Source: Brevibacterium iodinum ATCC 49514
Lineage (GTDB): Bacteria; Actinomycetota; Actinomycetes; Actinomycetales; Brevibacteriaceae
Assembly (NCBI RefSeq): GCF_900169265.1
Contig: NZ_FXYX01000004.1
Location: forward strand, 62,001-126,000
DNA: 64,000 nucleotides
Direction: 5' to 3'
The notes under the pieces were generated by a model. That model saw nothing but the letters and a program-made list of their open reading frames with translations. It had not been told where the DNA came from and did not search any database. Made by a program: the position numbers and the translations under genes. Position 1 is the first letter of the stretch, and each line of letters starts with the position of its first letter. Of this stretch, positions 16,050-62,014 are shown one piece after another.

Positions 16050-17990
16050 ATGCAGAAGAAACTCGTGCAGAGTTCGCTGGCAATCAGTGCCGCTGCGGCG
16101 CTGAGCCTGAGCGGCGCGCTCGTCGCCTCACCGGCGATGGCTGACAACGCCCCGCAGAAGCTGGACCTCCAGAGTGAAGCCCACGTCCAGAAGGCACTTT
16201 CTGGTATCGAAGGCGTCAACGCCTACGGCACCGACGGCAGCGAGCTCAGCATCGGCGTTGCCAAGAAGACCGATGATGTCAAGAAGCTCGAAGAGAAGTA
16301 CCAGAACATCAAGGTCACCGAGGGCGTCAAGGAACTGAAGCCCTACGCGAAGAATGACCTTGTCGGCGGTGCCGGCTACCTGGTCAAGGCAGGCGAGAGC
16401 GGCGGAGCCTGCTCGACCGGCTTCTCCGGCTGGGATGGAGACGGCAAGCCCGTCGTCCTCACCGCCGGTCACTGCTCGAAGATCATCAACGAGCAGACAA
16501 ACGAGTTCGACGGCGACACCACGGTCGACCAGACCGAGAAGCCCTCGATCTCCGAGGCCAACGGCGGCGAAGGCTTCCAGGCCTCCGGCAGCGGCGTCAT
16601 CGGCAAGTGGGGCTTCCACAACTTCGGCGGCGACCTCCTCGAAGGCGCCGACCAGAACAAGTGGCCTGAGCCCAGCGAGTCCGACATCGACTTCGCAGTC
16701 ATCAACGTCGACGAGTCGAAGTACAACGTCAAGAACGGCATCACCGACTGGTCGACCGCCGATTCGGACGATCTGGCCAAGTCGACCACCGAGATCACCG
16801 AGGTCGGTGCGCACAAGGACGGCGCTATCAGCAAGTCCGGTCGTACCACCGGTAAGACCGAGGGCAAGGTTCTGCCCCGCTCGGAGTACGACTTCGATTA
16901 CCAGAATGTCGGCGGTCGTTGGGTCCACGGATTCGGTGTGACTGCTCCGATCGACAAGCCCTTCTCGCAGCCGGGCGACTCCGGCGGCGGCGTCTACCAG
17001 GGCAACACCGCCGTGGGTGTCATCTCCGGCGGCGGCGACCTCGATGCGAACACCTCGTTCACCTGGGTTGCCGACCTGGACCACTCGCTCGAGGAGTCCG
17101 GCACGGACTTCAACCTCAAGAAGCCGGGCGAGGAGACCCCTGAGGCACCTGCCGCTCCGAAGGCCGAAGACCAGACCATCGAGCCTGAGGGCAAGGTCCA
17201 GGGCAAGGCCGAGGCTGGCGCCAAGGTCGAGGTCAAGTGGGAACCCGCTGAAGGTGCTCAGGCAGCCGAGAACGGTTCTGAGACCGTCACGGCTGACAAG
17301 GACGGAAACTTCTCCGTCGAGGGCCCCAAGGCCGAAGGCGACTACAACTTCACTGCGACTGCAACCGTCGATGGACAGGAGTCCAAGACGACCGAATTCG
17401 ACGTGACCGTTGAGAAGGACGAGTCCGAGACCCCTGCTCCCGTCGGGCGTGAGATCAGCGTCGACCCCAAAGAGATCGCTGCTTCCGACTTCGTGAAGGA
17501 AGACAAGGGCGTGACGATCACGGTCAAGGGCTTCGACGAGGGCGAGAAGGTCAACCTCGAAGTTGCCAACGGGCCTGAAGGCGTCGAGGGCATCAAGCTG
17601 GACGAGACCGCCAATGAGAACGGTGCCGCCGCATTCTCGATCTACGGCACCAGCGCCGAGAACGCCGAGGCCTACCTCGGTAAGTACGACGTCGAGGTCA
17701 CCGGCGCCAACGACACCGAGGACGAGTCGGCACTGACCGGTACGTTCGAGGTAGTCGCTGACGAAGACGGTTCCGGCGGCGGATCCGGCGGAGACGATGA
17801 CGGCAACAACGACGGCGGCAATGCCGACGGCGGAGCCGGCGACGGAAACGACGATGACGGAAACGGTGACGGCGGTTCTGATTTGCCTCGCACCGGTGCC
17901 GAGCTGACCGGCCTTGCTGCCGGAGCCGGACTGCTCCTCGTGGGCGGAACCGCGGTCGTTTTGACGATGCGTCGCAAGAACAACAACTGA
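16050..17990 (+). CDS. LPRTG-anchored trypsin-like serine protease, copy 1
   Basis: Secreted chymotrypsin-fold (S1, streptogrisin-like) protease fixed to the wall by sortase. Order: Sec signal peptide (1-32, ending SPAMA-D), a pro-like segment (~33-100), and a protease domain with His141 in TAGHCSK, Asp214 in DIDFAVINVD and Ser311 in PGDSGGGV. An Ig-like repeat (~370-460) and a second beta domain (~465-580) follow, then a Gly/Asp/Asn linker, LPRTG, a membrane helix and an RRKNNN tail. No sortase gene is in the window. A near-identical paralogue follows. The complete triad suggests activity. Confidence 0.88.
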   Translation: MQKKLVQSSLAISAAAALSLSGALVASPAMADNAPQKLDLQSEAHVQKALSGIEGVNAYGTDGSELSIGVAKKTDDVKKLEEKYQNIKVTEGVKELKPYAKNDLVGGAGYLVKAGESGGACSTGFSGWDGDGKPVVLTAGHCSKIINEQTNEFDGDTTVDQTEKPSISEANGGEGFQASGSGVIGKWGFHNFGGDLLEGADQNKWPEPSESDIDFAVINVDESKYNVKNGITDWSTADSDDLAKSTTEITEVGAHKDGAISKSGRTTGKTEGKVLPRSEYDFDYQNVGGRWVHGFGVTAPIDKPFSQPGDSGGGVYQGNTAVGVISGGGDLDANTSFTWVADLDHSLEESGTDFNLKKPGEETPEAPAAPKAEDQTIEPEGKVQGKAEAGAKVEVKWEPAEGAQAAENGSETVTADKDGNFSVEGPKAEGDYNFTATATVDGQESKTTEFDVTVEKDESETPAPVGREISVDPKEIAASDFVKEDKGVTITVKGFDEGEKVNLEVANGPEGVEGIKLDETANENGAAAFSIYGTSAENAEAYLGKYDVEVTGANDTEDESALTGTFEVVADEDGSGGGSGGDDDGNNDGGNADGGAGDGNDDDGNGDGGSDLPRTGAELTGLAAGAGLLLVGGTAVVLTMRRKNNN

Positions 17991-18031
17991 GTGATGTGAA
18001 GCCGACCGTCTGACGGTCTGCTGAACTCACC

Positions 18032-18067
18032 GACGGTGCCCCCGGTCTTCTGACCGGGGGCACCGTC
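18032..18067 (+). terminator. Rho-independent terminator after protease copy 1
   Basis: GACGGTGCCCCCGGTC and its exact complement form a 16-bp stem around TTCT, 42 bp after the stop. The T-run is weak but the stem is very strong. Confidence 0.85.
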
Positions 18068-18254
18068 TATTCATGGCGGCGGTCTCCCGGAAGATGCCGG
18101 CAAGTCACTTTGTACATCTGCTGAAGTTTCGGTCATTAAGTTCACAGTTTTGGACGTACTTTTTTGGTAGTTCCTGAGTGCGGCCCGTAACCTTATCGTG
18201 ACTTAGGTCATCAACTTGTGACATTGATCCCTCAGAACAGAGAGACAACAACTT

Positions 18255-20483
18255 ATGCAGAAGAAACTCGTACAGAGTTCGCTGGCGCTCACGGCGGCAA
18301 CGGCGCTCGGCCTGGGCGGAGCGTTCGCTGCTTCTCCGGCCGTCGCTGACAACGGTCCGCAGAAGCTGAATGTGCAGAGCGATGCGGCTGTGCAGAAGAC
18401 TCTGGACAAGGCGTCCGGTGTCAACGCATACGGCGCCAAGAACGGCAAGCTCACCATCGGTGTTGAAAAGGCCGACAAGACTACCAAGAAGCTTGAGCAG
18501 GATTTCTCGAACGTCAAGGTCGTTGAGGGAGTCAAAGAGCTGAAGGCCTATGCCGGCAACGACTTGGTTGGCGGAGCGGGTTACCTTCTCCAGGATGGCG
18601 GACCCGGCGGCGCCTGCTCGACCGGGTTCTCAGGCTGGGATGCTGATGGAAAGCCGATCGTTCTGACCGCTGGCCACTGCGCCAAGATCATCAATGAGGA
18701 TACTTTCGAGTTCGAAGGCGACACGACTGTCGACGAAACCGAACAGCCTTCCACTGCCCCTGCGGTAGGCGGAAAGGGATTCAAGCAGACGGGGCTCGGT
18801 GCCATCGGCACATGGGGCTATAACAAGTTCGGTGGAGAACTCGTTCCTCCGGGTTCAAATGCTCAGCCCAATGAGGACGATATCGACTTCGCGATCATCA
18901 ATGTCGATGCTTCGAAGTACAACGTCAAGACGGGTGTAACCGACTGGTCGACCGCCGGAGACGACGATCTCGCTGCGAAGCTCGCTACCGATATCACCAA
19001 GGTCGGCGCTCATAGTGAAGGCACCGTTCAGAAGGCCGGCCGAACCACCGGGCTGACTGAGAACGAGACTTGGACTGCCTACAACGAGCAATTCGACTTC
19101 GTCAATGTCAGCGGACGCTTCGTCCACGGCTTCGGCGTCAAGGCGCCGAAGGGTGATCCGTTCTCCGCGCCCGGAGATTCCGGTGGCAGTGTATTCCAGG
19201 GTGAGACTGCAGTCGGCGTCATCTCCGGTGGCGGCCCCACAGAGGACGAGGACGGCAATGAAGTCGACTTCAGCTGGATTGCCGACCTCGACTATTCGCT
19301 CGAGAAGTCCGGCCAGTCGATTTCGTTCGAGGACCCGAACGAGGAGCCTCCGGGTGATGATGAGGCAGAGGCTGACGCGTCGGCTGCTGCTGACGGTGAA
19401 GATGCAGATGCTTCGGCCGCTGCCGACGGTGAGGACGCAGATGCTTCCGCCGCGGCCGAGGGCGACGACGCAAACGCTTCCGACAACGCTGACGCCGACG
19501 CCAAGGAAGCTGATGCTTCGTCCGCTGCGGAAGGCGACGACGCTGAAGCTTCGGCCGACGCAGACGGAGCAGAGTCAGACGCTTCCGCAGCCGCTGATGG
19601 CGACAACGCCGATGCATCCGCTGCCGCCGACGGTAAGGATGACAAGGCCGATTCCGACGCTGACGGCGACGAGAAGCCGGAAGCTCCCAAGGTTGGAGAC
19701 CAGACCGTCGTTGAAGGCGGAAAGATCACCGGTAAGGCCGCTCCGAACGCTGAAGTGAAGCTGACCTGGAAGGCCGCTGGCGATGCCCAGGCAGGTTCCG
19801 CTCAGGCTCAGGCCGCACCGGCTGAGGGCAGCGTCACGGTCAAGACCGATGCTGACGGAAACTTCTCCACCGAGGCTCCTGCCGAGGCTGGCGAATACGC
19901 CTACTCTGCCACGGTTACCGCTAACGGACAGACCTCGGAAGCAACCAGCTTCACGGTGACTGTCCAGGCTGCCGAAGCCGAGCGCAAGCTGACCGTCGAG
20001 CCGAAGGAGGTCGCTGCTTCGGACTTCGTGAAGGAAGACAAGGGCGTGCAGATCACGGCTGAAGGCTTCGAAGAGGGAGAGAAAGTGACCCTCAAGGTTG
20101 TCGACGGGCCTGAAGGCGTCAAGGACTATGAGATGACGCAGACCGCCAACGCTGAGGGAGTCGTCGGATTCTCGATCTACGGCACCAGCGCTTCGAACCC
20201 CGAGGCCTACCTCGGTAAGTACGACGTTCAGGTCACCGGCGCCAATGACACCGAAGACGAAGAAGCCCTCACCGGCTCCTTCCAGGTTGTTGCCGACGAA
20301 GACGGCAACGGCGGCGGCAACGATGGTGACGACAACGGCAACGATGATGGAAACGGTGACGGCGGCGGATCTGATCTGCCTCGCACCGGTGCCGAGCTGA
20401 CCGGCTTGGCTGCCGGAGCCGGACTGCTCCTCGTCGGTGGAGCCGCTGTTGTTCTGACCATGCGTCGCAAGAAGAACAACTGA
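18255..20483 (+). CDS. LPRTG-anchored trypsin-like serine protease, copy 2, with acidic repeat insert
   Basis: Paralogue of the preceding gene with the same first 11 residues (MQKKLVQSSLA), the same domain order and the same LPRTG sorting signal and RRKKNN tail. Triad: His141, Asp211 and Ser309 (PGDSGGSV). It differs by an extra low-complexity acidic block at residues ~373-475, built on an 11-residue unit like ADASAAADGED, between the protease and the Ig-like domain. The block probably acts as a spacer reaching through the wall or as a cation-binding stalk (inference). Length 742 aa. Own promoter region and a strong terminator, so the genes are separately transcribed. Confidence 0.88.
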   Translation: MQKKLVQSSLALTAATALGLGGAFAASPAVADNGPQKLNVQSDAAVQKTLDKASGVNAYGAKNGKLTIGVEKADKTTKKLEQDFSNVKVVEGVKELKAYAGNDLVGGAGYLLQDGGPGGACSTGFSGWDADGKPIVLTAGHCAKIINEDTFEFEGDTTVDETEQPSTAPAVGGKGFKQTGLGAIGTWGYNKFGGELVPPGSNAQPNEDDIDFAIINVDASKYNVKTGVTDWSTAGDDDLAAKLATDITKVGAHSEGTVQKAGRTTGLTENETWTAYNEQFDFVNVSGRFVHGFGVKAPKGDPFSAPGDSGGSVFQGETAVGVISGGGPTEDEDGNEVDFSWIADLDYSLEKSGQSISFEDPNEEPPGDDEAEADASAAADGEDADASAAADGEDADASAAAEGDDANASDNADADAKEADASSAAEGDDAEASADADGAESDASAAADGDNADASAAADGKDDKADSDADGDEKPEAPKVGDQTVVEGGKITGKAAPNAEVKLTWKAAGDAQAGSAQAQAAPAEGSVTVKTDADGNFSTEAPAEAGEYAYSATVTANGQTSEATSFTVTVQAAEAERKLTVEPKEVAASDFVKEDKGVQITAEGFEEGEKVTLKVVDGPEGVKDYEMTQTANAEGVVGFSIYGTSASNPEAYLGKYDVQVTGANDTEDEEALTGSFQVVADEDGNGGGNDGDDNGNDDGNGDGGGSDLPRTGAELTGLAAGAGLLLVGGAAVVLTMRRKKNN
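19371..19680 (+). repeat. Coding tandem repeat, ~33-bp unit, acidic Ala/Asp/Glu/Ser
   Basis: Degenerate in-frame repeats of about 33 bp encode 11-residue units such as DASAAADGEDA and DASAAAEGDDA. First copies are nearly identical in DNA, later ones diverged, as expected from slippage or recombination. The unit count could vary between strains. Confidence 0.75.
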
Positions 20484-39906: not shown

Positions 39907-40089
39907 CCGCTGCCGCACGCCGCTCTCCGCCGATCAAGCTTTCCCGCACGGCGTTCTCCACCGATCAAGCGTTCCCGCAAGCCGCTTTCCGCCGATCAAG
40001 CGTTGGCGCACATTCGTGGACGTCTACGGGTACATATCCGCGGCAGCGCTTGATCGGCGGGGAATTCTCGCTGTGGTGTGACGGTGCGG
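39907..40089. repeat. Intergenic cluster of three 31-bp direct repeats plus one inverted copy
   Basis: Three direct copies of a 31-bp unit, each carrying TCCGCCGATCAAGC or a close variant, occur with GATCAAGC at 39932, 39963 and 39994. An inverted copy (CGCTTGATCGGCGG, 40047-40060) pairs with the third unit (CCGCCGATCAAGCG, 39989-40002) over 14 bp, leaving a 44-nt loop. It lies between a plus gene (ending 39906) and a convergent gene (ending 40090). It could be a bidirectional terminator, a protein-binding element or a member of a dispersed repeat family. No other copy was found in this window. Confidence 0.7.

Positions 40090-60103: not shown

Positions 60104-62014
<1,911 letters not shown>

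Follow-up and report, generated by a model that had tools for sequence, protein, structure and literature searches.

Two adjoining genes of Brevibacterium iodinum ATCC 49514 encode predicted cell-surface proteases of the same general plan; the first stays constant among related species while its neighbour varies both in its protease head and in the length of the stalk that carries it. The window, i.e. the whole stretch of DNA analysed, comprises 64,000 nucleotides (positions 62,001 to 126,000 of contig NZ_FXYX01000004.1, assembly GCF_900169265.1), and the pair occupies window positions 16050 to 20483. The pair itself is already known: according to the available part of the report by Pham et al. 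(2017), a two-gene LPXTG protease cluster is present in 16 of 23 Brevibacterium genomes, a set including B. iodinum ATCC 49514 (PMC5719810). New here, as far as literature searches show, are the length turnover of a stalk confined to one paralogue and the substitution of one head for another while the base is conserved. The best explanation of the whole, which we consider rather probable from the sequence evidence, is an active protease with an exchangeable head on a tether of variable length. Head replacement, which does not figure in an earlier interpretation of the bare DNA letters (the sequence-only reading), is the more unusual feature of the two.

Organization of the gene pair

The sequence-only reading had proposed two tandem paralogues with a His-Asp-Ser triad and an LPRTG signal, and both open reading frames are found at the positions given there. 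In each protein the triad motifs for His (TAGHC), Asp (DIDFA) and Ser (GDSGG) follow one another in this order, and an LPXTG motif, a hydrophobic span and a basic tail are present. Genes 1 and 2 score 21.1 and 21.9 bits against Pfam Trypsin (cut-off 20.6) and 20.8 and 21.9 bits against the LPXTG_anchor profile TIGR01167 (cut-off 15.9). Weak matches to Pfam MG2, CarboxypepD_reg, SpaA, DUF7586 and others were below cut-off and were set aside. The features of the pair, including its immunoglobulin-like (Ig-like) domains, are as follows.

16050..17990, + strand: gene 1, 646-residue short-linker LPRTG protease, stable within the genus (open reading frame; Trypsin and LPXTG_anchor profiles)
16050..16142, + strand: gene 1 signal peptide, residues 1-31 (assigned by visual inspection)
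16143..16346, + strand: gene 1 putative pro-region, residues 32-99 (AlphaFold2 model of gene 2; homology to the N-terminus of a purified proteinase)
16347..17117, + strand: gene 1 S1 protease head, approximately residues 100-356 (Trypsin profile; homologue alignment)
17145..17420, + strand: gene 1 candidate Ig-like domain, Big_6-like, residues 366-457 (PF17936, 23 bits, under the cut-off of 27.6)
17448..17771, + strand: gene 1 second beta domain, a pedestal domain (domain search; predicted structure)
17883..17987, + strand: gene 1 LPRTG sorting signal, membrane span and basic tail (TIGR01167)
17991..18254, + strand: intergenic stretch of 264 bp, conserved unlike the gene 2 head (71-97% identical in 14 close relatives)
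18255..20483, + strand: gene 2, 742-residue stalked LPRTG protease (open reading frame; Trypsin and LPXTG_anchor profiles; AlphaFold2)
18255..18347, + strand: gene 2 signal peptide, residues 1-31 (assigned by visual inspection); the exchanged segment starts near residue 21
18348..18551, + strand: gene 2 pro-region, residues 32-99, exchanged along with the head (predicted alpha/beta fold)
18552..19325, + strand: gene 2 S1 protease head, approximately residues 100-357, the exchanged module (structural match to 2sfa)
19350..19667, + strand: gene 2 acidic stalk of Ala, Asp and Glu, residues 366-471 (period of 33 bp; disorder predicted)
19680..19967, + strand: gene 2 Ig-like domain, residues 476-571 (AlphaFold2 strands at 483-571)
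19977..20306, + strand: gene 2 second beta domain, an Ig-like pedestal domain, residues 575-684 (predicted structure)
20376..20480, + strand: gene 2 LPRTG sorting signal, membrane span and basic tail (TIGR01167)

Replacement of the gene 2 protease head

Each species is represented by a single genome in the collections, and all comparisons reported here are between species. A homologue of the protease is found in 51 of the 57 genomes of the genus, and the 21 loci found in the named genome collection are all from Brevibacterium. Stretches taken from 40 of the 50 other genomes yielded, together with the two proteins of the window, 79 proteins; these were filtered for an AGHC or GDSGG motif and represent all homologues placed in the stretches by the genome search, none being known to have been dropped. 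In the alignment the His, Asp and Ser residues and the cysteine pair are retained in all 79. Two or three tandem copies are present in 34 of 36 loci (the window and L062-L096, leaving out the five distant loci L097-L101), and one copy in L083 and L094. Several copies are broken or cut: the second gene of L082 (genome G028) by an in-frame stop (TAG) and the first gene of L090 (G016) by a broken frame, both around the end of the protease domain, and L080_2 and L096_2 by contig ends. L070 (G003:C1:1753200-1764500) carries three tandem proteases, of which the middle one groups with gene 1 by its C-terminal part and the third with gene 2; the C-terminal tree was computed in quick mode and serves for description only.

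In the protease tree the gene 2 heads split into several old groups. Pairwise comparison covered the 29 loci with exactly two complete genes, thus 406 species pairs, and left out L070, L080, L082, L083, L090, L094, L096 and the five distant loci. The heads of gene 1 are on average 0.774 identical and those of gene 2 0.581, with gene 2 having the lower value in 383 of the 406 pairs. For the 86 pairs with gene 1 heads more than 90% identical, the means are 0.607 for the gene 2 heads and 0.864 for the gene 2 beta domains. Grouped at 70% identity, the 36 gene-2-type heads form 14 classes, compared with 2 classes among 35 gene 1 heads, and seven gene 2 classes are distributed over only 17 close species with gene 1 heads at least 87% identical to that of the window (L070_3 being used for L070).

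The chimeric nature of gene 2 is visible along single alignments. Between the window and L077 the nucleotide identity of gene 2 is 0.87 over codons 1-20, drops mostly to 0.5-0.75 from codon 21 onwards, with a more similar block at codons 209-268, and is 0.82-0.98 from codon 369 except for a low block at 607-626 (0.67), whereas gene 1 of the same two species remains at 0.82 or above along its whole length. Towards L081, identity returns at codon 352. The intergenic DNA of the window is 97% identical to that of L071, while the gene 2 heads of the two are 56% identical. On a small scale the same pattern recurs in the closest relative, L062, whose fourfold-degenerate sites in gene 2 are 0.63 identical to those of the window in the head, compared with 0.94 (pro-region), 0.76 (Ig-like domain), 0.96 (beta domain) and 0.98 (anchor), and with 0.89 in the gene 1 head.

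Fourfold-degenerate sites were further compared among 15 close species, a set without L070 and L082, with head classes grouped by hand. Between classes their identity in the head is 0.33, against a baseline of 0.31 for unrelated sequences, and rises to 0.55 (Ig-like domain), 0.73 (beta domain) and 0.80 (anchor); for species of the same class the four values are 0.58, 0.64, 0.72 and 0.83. The gene 2 head alignment (head-2) rejects both the tree of gene 1 and that of the gene 2 C-terminal part, with log-likelihood (lnL) losses of 965 and 1128, respectively, and p values of the approximately unbiased test (p-AU) below 1e-60. For L068 and L086 the order is reversed, the gene 1 heads being 0.67 and the gene 2 heads 0.82 alike; since the fourfold sites of the latter are only 0.40 identical, any transfer would be old or have passed through intermediates. 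As a separate observation, codon bias is stronger in gene 1 heads than in gene 2 heads (chance fourfold identity 0.523 versus 0.310 in the 15 close species), which may reflect higher expression of gene 1.

The acidic stalk

The insert of about 100 Ala/Asp/Glu residues with a 33-bp period that the sequence-only reading had described in gene 2 is borne out, measuring about 106 residues, although it begins and ends slightly upstream of the segment 19371-19680 given there. Tandem Repeats Finder reports a period of 33, 7.5 copies and 68% match at 19380-19634, as well as a higher-order period of 72 bp. DNA identity at lag 33 is 0.646, compared with 0.474 (standard deviation 0.025) in codon shuffles, and because none of 2000 shuffles reached this value, at lag 33 or at any tested lag, the periodicity exceeds an effect of composition. 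The unit comprises 11 residues, e.g. ADASAAADGED. The array of the window is degenerate and relatives hold purer ones, namely in-frame arrays at the stalk position with differing units, some of them 88-100% pure: period 33 with 6.7 copies (95%) in L065_2, period 51 with 5.3 copies (95%) in L075_2, period 27 with 11.1 copies (88%) in L070_3 and period 27 with 3.1 copies (100%) in L073_2. As L070, L073 and L087 lie on contigs of whole-chromosome size, their repeat counts are less likely to be artefacts of draft assembly. By eye, the unit sequence tracks the species group more than the head class.

The linker between the protease and the Ig-like domain is 15-20 residues long in all 34 complete gene 1 proteins. 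For gene 2, 33 proteins were considered, including L070_3 and the single L094_1 on account of their C-terminal grouping and excluding L070_2, L082_2 and L096_2. In 32 of them the acidic tracts total 66-200 residues (at least its measured total for L080_2, which ends at a contig edge) and in L091_2 none, with 28 distinct totals in all. Among the closest relatives the linker measures 113 residues in L062_2, 124 in the window and 137 in L063_2. The repeat is thus variable, and in gene 2 rather than gene 1, as had been suggested, and the identical repeat length in all relatives that was named as a finding contrary to that proposal is not what is observed. In some species a second acidic tract is located between the two Ig-like domains. 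Acidic tracts of 20-32 residues that pass the filter in 26 of 34 gene 1 proteins were rejected as stalks, as they correspond to a loop in the Ig-like domain at approximately residues 393-429. Separate from the protease pair, the window holds a 31-bp tandem repeat at 39913-40011 (3.2 copies, 82% match).

Predicted structure of head and pedestal

The AlphaFold2 model of gene 2 was calculated from an alignment of 26 sequences and has a mean predicted local distance difference test score (pLDDT) of 66 and a predicted template modelling score of 0.42. It depicts residues 1-32, the signal peptide, as unstructured, followed by an alpha/beta pro-region (34-95), the strands and helices of the protease (103-352), two beta domains (approximately 480-571 and 577-679) and a disordered anchor region. 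The stalk is predicted without secondary structure at pLDDT below 50, and the Ig-like domain at mostly 78-91 except for residues 510-522. By sequence, the best match of the protease among solved structures is the serine proteinase 2sfa (E value 3.7e-7). As the Foldseek list for the full model consists mostly of Ig-like domains, the protease was judged by VIA-align, according to which the head is a double beta-barrel of the S1 fold: 2sfa, 1hpg and 2sga superpose with Z 18.0-18.4 over residues 104-358 (2sfa and 1hpg at 18.4, the former with 185 aligned residues and a root-mean-square deviation (rmsd) of 3.0), and alpha-lytic protease 2alp with Z 17.4 over residues 102-360.

Modelled alone, the second beta domain of gene 2 reaches a pLDDT of 91.2. 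It resembles Ig-like domains of intimin and invasin (Z 10.1, 89-91 residues aligned, rmsd 2.4-2.5), complement domains (Z 8-10) and many other Ig-like domains (Z 8-10), so that no particular function can be read from it. The search with this domain that the sequence-only reading had proposed returned it from all 60 genomes of the family searched, mostly in several copies per genome; it is therefore a general pedestal domain of the family's surface proteins and not specific to proteases. In both proteins (17448-17771 and 19977-20306) no Pfam model exceeds its cut-off over this domain, which makes it a candidate new domain family.

Proposed processing and wall attachment

An extracellular serine proteinase of strain ATCC 9174 is reported to have been described by Rattray et al. 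in 1995. The N-terminus reported for it closely resembles the gene 2 heads of L078_2 and L081_2 at EPY/AKNDAVGGMGY, and maturation is therefore placed at the Tyr-Ala bond. The pro-regions would accordingly be removed after export, probably autocatalytically, at LKPY/AKND in gene 1 and LKAY/AGND in gene 2, the alignment suggesting AKND and AGND as mature starts. After sorting, the mature proteins are predicted to have masses of 53.1 kDa (gene 1) and 61.6 kDa (gene 2) and a pI of about 4.1. One sortase was detected in the genome (L102 745-1986; G000:C13:25611-26006), which is of class E by its NCBIfam profile (248.8 bits versus a cut-off of 160) and by which the LPRTG signals would be attached to the wall.

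According to the part of PMC5719810 that was available, strain ATCC 9174 of B. linens (now B. aurantiacum) has an extracellular, casein-active proteinase whose N-terminal 20 residues are identical to one LPXTG protease. The head class of this proteinase differs from that of gene 2 of the window. The isolation of this active relative, together with the intact triad throughout the homologues, argues against the inactive orthologues that the sequence-only reading had named as a counter-argument.

Proposed mechanism and alternatives

Both genes would encode secreted, self-activating, streptogrisin-like (S1) endoproteases. Gene 1 would be the stable short-linker enzyme, whereas gene 2, with a similar anchor and likewise a pedestal of two Ig-like domains, would bear its head on a tether that is long, acidic and disordered and in which the number of repeats turns over. 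Its pro-region and head would have been replaced repeatedly by those of divergent relatives through recombination, with edges in the signal peptide and near or within the stalk, so that closely related species would bear different proteases on a common base. The enzymes probably serve the cell in feeding on environmental protein, e.g. casein, where the tether would give the head freedom to act on bulky substrates and head replacement would change the cleavage targets. The suggestion of the sequence-only reading that the repeat sets the reach through the cell wall is doubtful, as the stalk would lie outward of the two Ig-like domains; judging from this domain order, between protease and pedestal, it would serve to tether the enzyme head more than to span the wall. 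A more far-reaching version, on which our judgement is evenly poised, regards the second slot as a protease-diversifying locus: divergent active heads would move between Brevibacterium lineages onto a framework whose export signal, stalk, pedestal and anchor are conserved, the stalk serving both as flexible tether and as the usual crossover place that harms neither folded part, so that specificity and reach could vary independently of the anchor.

Several observations weigh against the exchangeable-head, variable-tether explanation. Nine of the 33 gene-2-type proteins lack an acidic tract immediately after the head: an extra Ig-like domain precedes the tract in L064_2, L069_2, L085_2, L086_2 and L090_2, the tract is located only further down in L084_2, L092_2 and L095_2 (in L090_2 too, after the extra domain), and L091_2 has none. 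The stalk is therefore not essential at that place. Towards L089_2 and L073_2 identity returns only deep in the stalk, at codons of about 387 and 454-474, respectively. The gene 2 C-terminal part also rejects the gene 1 tree (lnL loss 54, p-AU 0.002), as do the gene 2 Ig-like domain (Ig-2; p-AU 5e-6) and, marginally, the gene 1 head (head-1; 0.046), so recombination or alignment noise extends beyond the gene 2 head. The motif usually associated with class E sortases is LAxTG, and the surface proteins here carry LPRTG. Finally, as the ATCC 9174 enzyme was purified as extracellular, at least some enzyme of this kind is shed or not anchored.

The differing heads could alternatively descend from a longer ancestral tandem array, of which different members were kept in the second slot while gene conversion homogenised signal peptide, pedestal and anchor, with no import of foreign heads. 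The three tandem copies of L070, whose middle one sides with gene 1 in its C-terminal part, and the old, genus-wide head classes agree with such hidden paralogy. We nevertheless consider it unlikely, for the intergenic DNA of the slot is conserved in 14 relatives that mostly carry another head class, which is unexpected after array loss, no locus among the 36 has more than three copies, and gene conversion of the flanks would itself leave chimeric genes. Fast amino-acid evolution of the heads under selection, without recombination, would account for the four residues preceding GDSGG, near the entrance of the substrate pocket, being of 8 kinds among 36 gene 2 heads and of 3 kinds among 35 gene 1 heads. 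The identity boundaries are sharp, however, and between classes silent sites are saturated in the head and not in the beta domain or anchor, an effect that selection on protein level does not produce; adaptive change without recombination is therefore rejected as highly improbable. Another view, which we hold to be doubtful yet less so than hidden paralogy, takes the stalk as a neutral by-product, i.e. a slipping low-complexity tract tolerated without effect on reach or activity. Length and unit do vary freely, the position differs by lineage and L091_2 lacks a tract. On the other hand, a tract present in all but this one gene-2-type protein and the short linkers of gene 1 are set between the same flanking domains, and its composition is maintained despite the turnover of units.

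Relation to known systems and distribution

The Brevibacterium LPXTG protease pair of Pham et al. agrees with that of the window in its two adjoining genes, motif and genus, and the class, which the sequence-only reading had held not to be a textbook one, is thus already known; in its available part that paper mentions neither a stalk of repeats nor an exchange of heads among closely related species (PMC5719810). No description of the stalk or of head replacement was found in the literature searched, most subscription journals being outside its coverage. Streptogrisins and alpha-lytic protease (2sfa, 1hpg, 2sga, 2alp) share the fold, catalytic residues, pro-region and one conserved cysteine pair, but unlike the window pair their structures comprise about 180-200 residues without Ig-like domains, stalk or sorting signal, and 2sfa and 2sga have a Cys shortly upstream of GDSGG where the window proteases have Phe.

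Periscope Proteins are likewise wall-anchored, with a functional domain at the N-terminus held on a stalk of repeats that varies in length, but, in the portions of the sources at hand, their repeats fold into rods, whereas the gene 2 stalk is predicted to be disordered and its head is a protease (PMC8201768, PMC9704523). Gene 2 is not counted among them, given the stalk prediction (low pLDDT, no secondary structure) and the 11-residue unit. With respect to the high DNA-level repeat identity that is a trait of that group, the window reaches 68% and several relatives 88-100%. Another of its traits is a repeat number that differs within a population; for gene 2 the differences were seen between close species. 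In the staphylococcal Sdr/Clf proteins the Ser-Asp (SD) repeat is situated next to the wall. It is likewise acidic, variable in length and part of wall-anchored proteins, but, as far as the accessible text goes, it is an SD dipeptide in adhesins, in contrast to the Ala/Asp/Glu unit between protease and Ig-like domains of gene 2 (PMC3324548). Membership was rejected, as gene 2 has no SD dipeptide repeat. Proteinases of the PrtP type cut casein and are anchored. These cell-envelope proteinases of lactic acid bacteria are, in the part of the source consulted, likewise multidomain envelope proteases of dairy bacteria (PMC10535647). The lactococcal type (S8) was rejected as well, the subtilisin catalytic domain of PrtP having a fold unrelated to S1.

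Throughout the order, a homologue of the head was detected in 38 of 297 genomes, 18 of the 38 being outside Brevibacterium. Thirteen of these 18 were examined: ten proteins end in an LPxTG- or LAxTG-type motif, several show, by eye, Pro/Thr/Ser-rich tracts near the anchor, and in none of the 13 was an acidic Ala/Asp tract seen by eye after the head. Wall-anchored S1 proteases therefore represent a wider, little-described architecture, and judging by these sequences the acidic stalk seems peculiar to Brevibacterium. The distant Brevibacterium LPRTG S1 proteases L097, L099, L100 and L101 have repeats rich in Pro, Thr, Ser and Glu after the protease, not Ala/Asp repeats.

Significance

For a class of enzymes as little described as the wall-anchored S1 proteases, a locus in which one copy is constant while its neighbour varies in head and stalk length constitutes a natural experiment on the diversification of surface enzymes. 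Gene 2 offers an example of a disordered stalk with its junction at the edges of recombination, and the variation in head and stalk may help to explain differences in proteolysis among cheese-ripening strains.

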